From assembly GCF_003574655.1 (NCBI RefSeq), contig NZ_QNUM01000002.1:124001-188000 (forward strand): a stretch of DNA of 64,000 bases, read 5' to 3'. The notes under the pieces were generated by a model. It was given only the letters and a program-made list of their open reading frames with translations, ran no database searches and was not told the origin of the DNA. This DNA is from Cohaesibacter haloalkalitolerans (lineage in GTDB: Bacteria > Pseudomonadota > Alphaproteobacteria > Rhizobiales > Cohaesibacteraceae). Both the position numbers and the translations under genes were made by a program. Below, one piece after another: positions 14,437 to 18,069 of this stretch; positions within the stretch are counted from its first letter, which is position 1, and each line of letters begins with the position of its first letter.

Positions 14437-15417
14437 ATGACCACAACAGCAGCCACCAGTAGCGCCTCTGCCCTGACCCTCGACGCCATTCGCGACGGAG
14501 GCAAGAAGGCTTTGGCGCGCGCACTCAGCGCGCTGGAGGCTGAGGACGGCAGCCTTGCCGTGGCCCGGTTGCTGGACGAAGCAGCGCACAATGCTACAGC
14601 GCATGTCGTGGGGCTGACCGGCCCACCGGGGGTTGGCAAATCAACATTGACCAATGCCCTTATCCGCCACTGGCGCGCCAATGGTGAGCGGGTTGGCGTT
14701 CTGGCGGTGGATCCTTCCTCCCGATTTTCGCAAGGCGCTCTCCTTGGTGACCGCACCCGGCTCGACACAGACCCGAGCGACAAGGACATGTTCGTCCGCT
14801 CCATGGCTGCGCGAGATCGCCTGGGGGGGCTCTCGAATGAGGCGGTTGCTGCCATTGTGCTCATGCGGGCGCTGTTCGACAGGGTGCTGGTGGAAAGCGT
14901 CGGCATCGGCCAGTCCGAAGCCGATATCGCCTTTGCCACGGATACTGTGATTCTCTGCATCCAGCCGGGTTCAGGCGACAGCCTGCAATTCATGAAGGCG
15001 GGCGTGATGGAGCTGCCCGACGTCATCGTCGTGACCAAGGCAGATGTCGGCAAGCCGGCCATGCGCGCCAAGGCCGATCTCGAAGGAGCCCTGTCGCTGA
15101 CCATGCGCAAGGACAAGGACTGGTCCGTGCCCGTGTTGCTGGTCTCAGCTTTCGACGATACAGGGTTACAACAACTTATAGCAGAAATTAGCCGACACTA
15201 CGGCAGTTTGCTGGAAAGCGAGAAATTCCTGTCAATCCGTCAGGATCAGGCAACACTTTGGTTGCTGGATCGCATTCGCAGAAAATTCGGAGAGATTGGC
15301 CTCGCGCAGATCAACGCCCGGGAACTCATCCATCGAGCTGGCGGCCCGTTCATGGCAGAACAGATGATCTCGGAGGATTTGTCACAAAGACTTGCAAAGA
15401 AGGTGGATGACTTGTGA
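14437..15417 (+). CDS. meaB: MeaB/ArgK-type G3E GTPase
   Basis: A 326-residue P-loop GTPase of the MeaB (MMAA/ArgK) group, which protects and reactivates adenosylcobalamin-dependent methylmalonyl-CoA mutase. Walker A is GPPGVGKST near residues 64-72. The Mg-binding and switch region is AVDPSSRFSQGALLGDRTR, the second switch is VESVGIGQSEADI, and the base-specificity motif is VTKAD. No mutase gene is nearby, so the client is inferred from the family only. The family usually reads ETVGVGQSE, so VESVGIGQSE is a mild variant. Confidence 0.88.
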   Translation: MTTTAATSSASALTLDAIRDGGKKALARALSALEAEDGSLAVARLLDEAAHNATAHVVGLTGPPGVGKSTLTNALIRHWRANGERVGVLAVDPSSRFSQGALLGDRTRLDTDPSDKDMFVRSMAARDRLGGLSNEAVAAIVLMRALFDRVLVESVGIGQSEADIAFATDTVILCIQPGSGDSLQFMKAGVMELPDVIVVTKADVGKPAMRAKADLEGALSLTMRKDKDWSVPVLLVSAFDDTGLQQLIAEISRHYGSLLESEKFLSIRQDQATLWLLDRIRRKFGEIGLAQINARELIHRAGGPFMAEQMISEDLSQRLAKKVDDL

Positions 15418-15656
15418 AACTGGTCGGCTGCAAATAAAAGCAAATGGTTAAAACAACCTGAAACGCTTCCGTACATTGGCTCCATCGGAAATTATTGATA
15501 TGAAACAATTCAGTTCGGCATGGAGGAAAATATTCGTAGCGAACACTTGCGTTTTGGGAGGTTAGATCTCGTATTATGGGAAAATTTTTCTATTCATAAC
15601 TTTTTCCTATTGGAAATTTGGTAAATTATGCAATTTAAAACGCGAAAAGGTATAAT

Positions 15657-15882
15657 TTTTGGGTGATTTAATATTCATTTCCAGTTAGATTTGAATTGCC
15701 TAAATGCATGCTCGGGGGAGCGTCACCTTATTTGGCTCTAGGTGTAGTGCGGACATTCTGCGGGGACTGTTCTGACAATCGCCTCCTACGTTTGAAGTTC
15801 TTTGCTGGTTTGAACCAAACGGAAGAGCAAGCTTTTAGGTATTACTTGCCCGGACCCTTTTCAGGGCTCCGGGCATTTTTTT
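15657..15882 (+). ncRNA. Candidate structured small RNA ending in an intrinsic terminator
   Basis: A TATAAT box stands at 15651-15656. Downstream, the arm at 15698-15713 (GCCTAAATGCATGCTC) can pair with 15825-15840 (GAGCAAGCTTTTAGGT) in a 16-position helix with only two mismatches, one G-T pair and 13 Watson-Crick pairs. Inside are smaller stems: CACC/GGTG (15724-15744), GCGGA/TCTGC (15749-15761), and GTTTG/CAAAC enclosing GTTC/GAAC (15790-15820). A strong terminator (15848-15882) follows at once. A long closing helix around a roughly 150-nt body is the architecture of 6S RNA, but I cannot confirm that assignment. No -35 box fits well. Confidence 0.45.
15848..15882 (+). terminator. Strong intrinsic terminator ending the RNA candidate
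   Basis: A stem GCCCGGA/TCCGGGC extends inward through CCC/GGG with a TTTTCA loop, then A and seven T. No protein gene ends just upstream: meaB stops 430 bases earlier. Confidence 0.88.
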
Positions 15883-16326
15883 ATCCAGACGTCCGAATCT
15901 GTGCCCTGCGTTACCCTCCCCAACGCCTCTACAACCAGAAATGTGCATTGACGACCAGAATGCATTCTGTTGCCAAAAACCTTTTCAGAACCCGATTTGC
16001 CACTTTCCTCCACATATTCGTGCTGCAAAATGCGACGCATTGTCATTTTTCACTAGAGAAAATTTTTCCTGCCCAAGCTTCGCCTCATTGACCAGTTACG
16101 GGGCCAGCAGGGTGACCTGTGAGGGTGCCTGTCTAGGGCGCCGTCGGAAGGGACCGCTTATGGTTTTTTTAACGACAATTGCGACGTTAACGCTCTTTCA
16201 AGGTTAATGGTGCATTATTGCCTCTATGGATCGGTCGGTTTTCCGGTTTCTGTGCGTGCGCAGCCCAGCGTATCAATACGGGCATGCGATAGAGTGTAAT
16301 AGTTGCGTTGTGTAGTTGGTGACAGA

Positions 16327-18069
16327 ATGTCTAAATCCTTGCTTGGCCAAAAGAGCCCTGGTCTGACCGCCTGTCTGATGATCGGTACCGCATTGGTCCT
16401 TTCTTTCACTCAATCTCTCGACGAAGACAGGTCTGCTGCGGTCTCTCTGGCCGATCTTAGAAAGCAGGGTTGGACTGCGGAAACTTACGAACAAGCCTTC
16501 ATGACCCGGCAAGGCGCTGCCAGCCAGCAGCCAGCCCGGGCAAGCGCATCCGGTGCTTCGCAAGCGCCACTCCCCGTACAGACCGCTGCTTTTGCTCCCA
16601 CAAATGTTGTCGCCAGCGCTTCGGCTGGCCAGTTCCGCAAGGGCACCTATATCCAGATCTCCGAGCCTTCGGACAAGGCACCGGATATCCGCTCACAGCA
16701 GTCCTATGCAGTTGCCAGATTGTCGGATCTGGAACCGACCCTCACGGTCGATGCAAGCCGCAAGGGCGATCGCCGCCGCAGCTGGACATGGGAGCCGTTC
16801 AAGGTTGCCCACGGACGTCGCGACATTGCCATGAACTGGTCGGGTTCCGTCTGGCACATGGCAAGCCCTGTGGCAGAGGAAAGCAACGACGCCTTGCCAA
16901 AGCTGGCTTTTGAGCCTGCTGACGACTTGACGATGGTCATGGCCGATGCACAGCATTTTCTCAAGTCCGACAGCTTCCCGGACGGCTCAGACATGATGTT
17001 CGCGCAGAATGGCAACGACTCCGGGACCACAGAAGCAGTTGACCCGACCGTCACCGGCTCGACAGCCCTTGCCTATGCGCCAACCTCGGACAGCACCGAG
17101 GCACCATTCGAAGCCATCCTGACCGAGCAGCGCAAGGGCGCCATCAGTGAAGACAATCAGGTGACCGTGATCGATGCGATCGACGATTACAACAGCACCG
17201 GCGACGACGGCCCGGCCAAGGCATCCGGCAATGGCGCAACACTGCTAGCCTCTCTGCCCCCTATCAACGCCCTGCCCCGCGCTCGGGTTCCATATTCTTC
17301 CACGACAGCCGAAGTCGCCCAGACGTTGCCTCAACCGTCGCCTCAGCCGTTGCCCAAGGTCAGCAAGCCGCTTGACATTTCTCCCATCGTAGCCGATGCC
17401 AAGCCGCATCTGACCGAGGAGACCGAAAGCACGCAACAGGCAGCACAGGAAAAATCGGTTCCGTTGACCCTTGCCCGCAGCCAGGCAAGGCGCGCCGAGC
17501 TTAAGCTGGCCAAACTCGCTGATACCGATGAGGAAGAACCGACCAAGAAGAAGTCCCGCTGGGCCAGCTGGTTCAACTTCTCCAGCCCCAAGAAGGCCAA
17601 GATCGATACCCGTGGCGAGCATGCCTGGGTAACGAACAAGATTCCGAAGTCTTCCTACACCAGCAAGCAGAAGACCTGTCTTGCCAACGCCATCTATTTT
17701 GAAAGCCGCTCCGAGCCCGAAACCGGCCAGATCGCCGTTGCCCAGGTTGTGATGAACCGCGTCAAGAACCCTGCCTATCCGGATTCGATTTGCGGCGTGG
17801 TCTATCAGAACCAGAACATGCGCAACGCCTGCCAGTTCTCCTTCGCCTGCGATGGCATTCCTGACCGTGTCCGTTCCAAGAAGGCCTGGGATCTGGCCGT
17901 GAAACTGGCCAACGAGGTCATCAACGAGGAAGTCTGGTTGAAAGACGTCGGCTCCGCGACCCATTATCATGCGACCTATGTCCGTCCGAAATGGGCCAAG
18001 ACGATGAAGAAAGCCGACAAGATCGGGTTGCACATCTTCTACAAGACCTATGGCGGCGGCTGGAGCTGA
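16327..18069 (+). CDS. Cell-wall hydrolase, SleB/CwlJ (Hydrolase_2) type
   Basis: A 580-residue envelope protein. It has a hydrophobic N-terminal segment near residues 13-27 (signal or anchor), then about 410 residues of low-complexity Ser/Ala/Pro-rich linker. The C-terminal 130 residues form a Hydrolase_2 domain (TCLANAIYFESRSEP, then QVVMNRV, then SICGVVYQ, then CQFSFACDG). The Glu of YFESR is the presumed lytic-transglycosylase acid. Family members cleave peptidoglycan. A basic Lys/Trp-rich stretch (KKKSRWASW) lies just before the domain. It ends in a strong terminator and is preceded by the long AT-rich region, so it stands alone. Confidence 0.85.
   Translation: MSKSLLGQKSPGLTACLMIGTALVLSFTQSLDEDRSAAVSLADLRKQGWTAETYEQAFMTRQGAASQQPARASASGASQAPLPVQTAAFAPTNVVASASAGQFRKGTYIQISEPSDKAPDIRSQQSYAVARLSDLEPTLTVDASRKGDRRRSWTWEPFKVAHGRRDIAMNWSGSVWHMASPVAEESNDALPKLAFEPADDLTMVMADAQHFLKSDSFPDGSDMMFAQNGNDSGTTEAVDPTVTGSTALAYAPTSDSTEAPFEAILTEQRKGAISEDNQVTVIDAIDDYNSTGDDGPAKASGNGATLLASLPPINALPRARVPYSSTTAEVAQTLPQPSPQPLPKVSKPLDISPIVADAKPHLTEETESTQQAAQEKSVPLTLARSQARRAELKLAKLADTDEEEPTKKKSRWASWFNFSSPKKAKIDTRGEHAWVTNKIPKSSYTSKQKTCLANAIYFESRSEPETGQIAVAQVVMNRVKNPAYPDSICGVVYQNQNMRNACQFSFACDGIPDRVRSKKAWDLAVKLANEVINEEVWLKDVGSATHYHATYVRPKWAKTMKKADKIGLHIFYKTYGGGWS

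Follow-up and report, generated by a model that had tools for sequence, protein, structure and literature searches.

Results

The window, that is, the whole stretch of 64,000 nt of Cohaesibacter haloalkalitolerans DNA that we analysed, carries meaB (14437-15417; Pfam MeaB match) and a cell-wall hydrolase gene (16327-18069; Pfam Hydrolase_2 match), which are separated by a gap of 909 nt (15418-16326). The first-pass annotation had described this gap as a gene-free region of about 0.9 kb next to a cell-wall hydrolase gene and meaB. On the forward strand of the gap we propose a structured RNA of about 186 nt (15697-15882), whose start is predicted from the closing helix P1 and a promoter-like element and whose end is predicted from an intrinsic terminator. 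The 5' arm of P1 (15697-15713) pairs with its 3' arm (15825-15841), and the 5' arm of P2 (15716-15722) pairs with 15780-15785, the P2 3' arm being assigned from the fold and from compensating changes. The remaining stems are P3 (15724-15744; CACC/GGTG with a conserved loop, UUGGCUC), P4 (15751-15772), which contains the invariant UCUGCGGGGACUGUUC (15757-15772), and P5 (15789-15821), which contains the invariant CUUUGCUGGUUUGA (15800-15813) and has its loop at 15801-15811. The intrinsic terminator (15847-15882) comprises a stem at 15847-15875 and a T-tail.

The same gene order was found across the genus. The hydrolase gene lies downstream of the RNA in the same direction in all 18 Cohaesibacter genomes, and meaB, likewise co-directional, precedes the RNA in each of the 15 regions examined; PPDK has this orientation as well in all 15, and a LysE-type gene is present in 12 of them. 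The hydrolase start follows the second invariant motif at a distance of 406-630 nt (18/18 genomes) and follows the terminator by 444 nt in the window, while the distance between meaB and the RNA varies by about 500 nt between species. Of two family relatives outside the genus, G018 carries its best meaB and hydrolase relatives about 63 kb apart, and G019 carries them on separate contigs, where adjacency cannot be read.

A closing helix at 15698-15713 and 15825-15840, with two mismatches and a G-T pair, had been named from the sequence alone. We confirmed that 14 of its 16 positions pair, including one G-T, and that the two mismatches are T-T and A-A. Taken by itself this helix is within chance, since 41 of 200 dinucleotide-shuffled versions of this gap contained one or more helices just as good; from one sequence alone it was therefore a fair guess and no more, and it is credible because it is conserved with compensating changes rather than because of its single-sequence quality. 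The minimum-energy fold of 226 nt reached -75.1 kcal/mol (z -3.16), with none of 200 shuffles as low, and contained both the smaller enclosed stems and the terminator of the earlier description, the latter lying immediately after the helix with its T-tail running to 15882. A simple scan did not list the terminator at 15847-15882 and gave a different site, 15708-15723. When the loci of the 18 genomes were folded singly, the terminator stem formed in all 18, P1, P4 and P5 in 16, and P2 in 11, and the folds of L013 and L014 lacked the common plan. Loop-loop contacts inside the RNA were weak (-2.9 to -3.7 kcal/mol).

A blastn search with 15680-15885 matched all 18 Cohaesibacter genomes, the source genome included, and none of 23 genomes of other genera. 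The source genome has one copy of the RNA, together with two weak matches (E 0.8 and 7.7). All 18 genus loci were oriented and aligned. Among seven close genomes, mean pairwise identity was 0.95-1.0 in 15732-15821 and 0.92 in 15852-15881, and it fell from 0.92 to 0.42 (15882-15911) at the end of the terminator. Upstream, identity was 0.94 in 15582-15611, 0.57-0.74 in 15432-15581 and 0.21 in 15402-15431. Past the terminator it ranged from 0.42 to 0.83 up to 16091, came near zero in part of 16092-16181, and rose to 0.73-0.98 in 16182-16331, directly 5' of the hydrolase gene. The position of this last block beyond an unconserved stretch suggests that the hydrolase gene has a separate control region. 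Within it, the strongly conserved segment 16182-16225, which in close relatives contains the half-sites GTTAACGCTCT and AAGGTTAATG, resembles a regulator site; we presume that it could be CtrA-like, with a TTAA spacing at odds with the usual CtrA box.

The first-pass annotation had proposed looking for compensating changes in the 15698/15825 helix, and these were seen. In an unfitted MAFFT alignment of 18 sequences (A2; 17 distinct), on which a structure of 40 pairs was named, pairing held in 84.9% of cells, as against 79.5% in shuffles and 33-45% for slid structures. Changes on both sides occurred at 17 of the 40 pairs and in 48 cells, compared with 9.1 and 19.2 in shuffles, and none of 500 shuffles reached either value; the sequences are kin, so the changed cells are not independent events. 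Further pair types, one of five measures, were not above shuffles (39 versus 40.0). In an alignment fitted with R1, a covariance model of the RNA, which alignment by construction leans towards the structure, pairing rose to 91.4%, with both-side changes at 22 of 40 pairs and in 81 cells, a pair count reached by none of 500 shuffles. These changes fell at 11 of 15 pairs of P1 in the unfitted alignment and 14 of 15 in the fitted one, and at 4 of 8 and 6 of 8 pairs of P5, respectively; in the terminator, 4 stem pairs had changes on both sides. When run on the raw alignment, RNAalifold found P3, P4, the apex of P5 and the terminator, and missed P1 and P2. The P4 stem hardly varies, so its pairing falls outside the covariation test.

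The two motifs, UCUGCGGGGACUGUUC (P4) and CUUUGCUGGUUUGA (P5), show no difference among the 18 genus genomes and make up thirty nucleotides (16 + 14); the invariant positions of P4 include a U-G pair and a U-C mismatch. In most of the remoter species the neighbouring proteins have drifted to identities of 67-71% (MeaB) and about 46-57% (hydrolase). Comparison of the sequences across the genus thus indicates that the stems are under selection for pairing and the P4 and P5 apices under selection for exact sequence. Because the stems vary and the apices are fixed, the apices may be expected to contact something else.

Directly 5' of P1 lies a promoter-like element (15661-15692, forward strand) composed of GGGTGATTT (15661-15669) and TTAGATTT (15685-15692), with a spacing of 15 nt from TGATTT to TTAGAT; we infer a promoter function for it. 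TGATTT is found in 17 of 18 genomes, and GGGTGATTT and TAGATTT each in 11. The simple scan returned no sigma-70 consensus promoter, and the element is not such a consensus. The upstream TATAAT box on which the first reading had relied did not hold up: the string is present at 15651-15656 and is kept in only three of nine close genomes, namely the source genome and its two nearest relatives. Farther upstream, an AT-rich block (15581-15612, forward strand; identity 0.94 in 15582-15611 among the seven close genomes) may be an upstream activating element; it is kept in the close clade only and is unrecognisable in remoter genomes. Judged from sequence comparison, the locus resembles a trans-encoded sRNA in being a stand-alone intergenic unit with an intrinsic terminator and a conserved structure.

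A search of the window against Rfam 15 gave no family at the gathering cut-off, 6S and SRP included, in line with the earlier failure to match the RNA to a known family by sequence, and ARAGORN found no tmRNA in the window. Permissive Rfam searches, covering the gap and five divergent loci, returned only matches below cut-off, some of which (AgvB, suhB, NsiR1 and SorX) lie over the terminator; all of these we took as chance. The 6S model (RF00013) had no match at gathering in the window, nor up to E 10 in 15400-16320; the genome's own 6S gene lies elsewhere (55.9 bits against a cut-off of 46.4), flanked by frames that we take to be zapA and 5-formyltetrahydrofolate cyclo-ligase. A literature search found no paper joining Cohaesibacter and sRNA, and nothing joining meaB, sRNA and Rhizobiales. 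For Cohaesibacter and riboswitch, it returned a single denitrifying-reactor study, and the available text of PMC2864571 contains nothing on Cohaesibacter.

Beyond the genus, R1 searches with stricter filters, which weak relatives may escape, matched 11 of 297 genomes drawn from the order, all in Cohaesibacter, and, in 385 genomes drawn from the class, gave the RNA's own locus and three weak matches (E 0.0016, 0.011 and 0.028 per genome). The likeness of the three is chiefly to the P5 hairpin; near L161 there is no frame of at least 60 aa, and the other two overlap frames. We treated them as chance because 385 genomes had been searched, a reading that is unproven. G018 and G019 yielded one R1 match (E 1.7), and six stretches around their meaB and hydrolase relatives were searched with R1 with filters off. 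In the G018 stretch L092 (E 0.0013) the match is to an inverted repeat, weak on both strands and devoid of the invariant motifs, and L100 (E 0.013) has CUUUGC in common with the family; neither was accepted. The repeat in L092 (4580-4724) is long, has an internal hairpin and lies 3' of the hydrolase relative. A scan of 84,980 species genomes for the motif pair found five Cohaesibacter records, C. marisflavi and C. celericrescens among them, one Streptomyces and one Halobacillus, the last two having no R1 match at E 1, and plasmids and phages gave no match. On sequence evidence, the structured RNA family appears to be new and, as far as searched, restricted to Cohaesibacter.

We compiled complements of the apices. 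The exact P5-loop complement has 48 non-self sites in the 18 genomes, against 19 for a reversed control that differs in base order and codon content, and the exact P4-apex complement has 50 against 44 and is not enriched. Among the 17 of 48 P5 sites inspected, none recurred in one gene save in two close relatives; for P4, contexts were inspected at 19 of 50 sites. Neither G001 nor G006 has another exact complement of the P5 loop. In the source genome, the sole other exact complement of AAACCAGCAAAG (L121 1501-1512; C19:78782-78793) ends 10 nt 5' of the ATG of a 147-aa frame, over a likely Shine-Dalgarno sequence, a weak lead to a possible target. A pattern combining the complement with ATG gave too many sites across six genomes, with no site of the source genome among the matches listed. 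The site shared by the two close relatives (L105 in G009, L117 in G002) is an exact P5-loop complement 21 nt upstream of a 412-aa frame, which, read by eye, begins like a helix-turn-helix regulator. Against the hydrolase mRNA, at least 22 of 100 mononucleotide shuffles were as good as P4 and P5 in each genome, and for P3 the lowest genome had 9 of 100.

Discussion

The first-pass annotation was right about the object: what it called an orphan structured RNA candidate stands in 18/18 genomes with its long closing helix, inner stems and terminator, whereas the TATAAT box and the comparison with 6S RNA fail. A small regulatory RNA is its most likely identity. The explanation we prefer, to which we give about an even chance, is an independently transcribed, non-coding, trans-acting RNA of about 186 nt, belonging to a new family whose known members are all from Cohaesibacter, and most likely base-pairing with mRNAs. 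The GGGTGATTT/TTAGATTT element would drive a transcript that starts at about 15697 and ends at the U-tail near 15882, and the branched fold (P1; P2 with P3 and P4; P5) would provide a stable scaffold. It would act in trans, mRNAs pairing with the exposed loop of P5 (UUUGCUGGUUU), with the apex of P4 (UGCGGGGAC) or with both, and the U-tail may be an Hfq site. For a stand-alone, U-tailed RNA our first choice is antisense pairing by way of the open P5 loop; invariance of a whole hairpin, stem included, is also expected of a protein or ligand site.

The available portion of a Sinorhizobium-based survey reports that 32 of 39 sRNA families are confined to Rhizobiaceae (PMC3927594), so that a narrow distribution would be usual for an RNA of this type. 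The Rhizobiales trans-encoded sRNAs in that portion (PMC3927594) are likewise intergenic, structured and narrow in range, some with typical terminators; they are independently transcribed, whereas transcription of the Cohaesibacter RNA is a prediction. Rfam, which includes some Rhizobiales sRNAs, had no match to it. The analysis adds a well-supported RNA family that has no match in Rfam 15 as searched. Its thirty apical nucleotides have stayed fixed while MeaB and the hydrolase drifted, which marks an interaction at two short apices.

That interaction could instead be with a protein, the P4 and P5 apices serving as contact sites of a structured RNA, an alternative that we consider less likely. 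6S RNA binds RNA polymerase and serves as a template for product RNAs, and CsrB-type RNAs sequester a regulator. The 16 and 14 invariant nucleotides extend across stem and loop, including the U-G pair and U-C mismatch of P4, and the complement searches returned no recurring target, both of which favour protein binding; against it, no Rfam family of protein-binding RNAs matches, and we know of no protein partner for the RNA. In a bolder form, which we regard as rather doubtful, the RNA would represent a new class with a specific protein- or ligand-binding site built from the invariant P4 and P5 apices, and would serve as a genus-specific ribonucleoprotein or sensor and not as an antisense RNA. 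With 6S RNA (RF00013) it shares a long closing helix, a body of about 150 nt and a stand-alone location. The resemblance that had been suggested ends there, since 6S RNA forms one long hairpin that opens into a large central bubble, whereas the inner part of the Cohaesibacter RNA is branched, P2 with P3 and P4 being followed by P5, and has invariant hairpin apices.

The RNA might also be a cis-acting leader, a riboswitch-like attenuator of the cell-wall hydrolase gene that lies downstream in the same direction in 18/18 genomes. Its compact, aptamer-like multi-stem fold with an intrinsic terminator directly after resembles riboswitch and attenuator leaders; unlike them, it is separated from the next start codon by over 400 nt in all genomes (406-630 nt counted from the second motif; in the window, 444 nt past the terminator), with a distinct conserved block lying between. 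That block, 16182-16331, belongs to the hydrolase gene and is set off by the unconserved 16092-16181, and this, together with the distance, makes a leader unlikely. Inspection of the alignment by eye revealed no alternative anti-terminator pairing held across the set, and neither the P4 nor the P5 loop pairs with the hydrolase mRNA better than mononucleotide shuffles do.

An RNA derived from the 3' UTR of meaB, or an elaborate terminator of the meaB transcript, would fit the constant upstream position of that gene (15/15 regions). We consider this very improbable in view of the variation of about 500 nt in its distance from meaB between species, the promoter-like element directly 5' of P1, and the identity of 0.21 in 15402-15431, just past meaB, even though identity reaches 0.57-0.74 in 15432-15581. 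A short coding gene is scarcely credible: in the source genome an open frame of 131 aa (15696-16091) spans the element, and the spacing of the invariant motifs is 27 nt, which is divisible by three, in 14 of the 18 genomes, but it is 25 nt in the other 4, no open frame is conserved, stops within the element close the frame in L008, L018 and L019, frame ends differ between genomes, there is no Pfam match, and third codon positions are no less invariant than the others.

The terminator stem of the RNA begins with CTTGCCCGG, of which the window holds 6 copies against 1.2 expected (1043, 7684 and 15845 on the forward strand; 16536, 32175 and 37205 on the reverse strand). This is perhaps a common terminator word in the genus.
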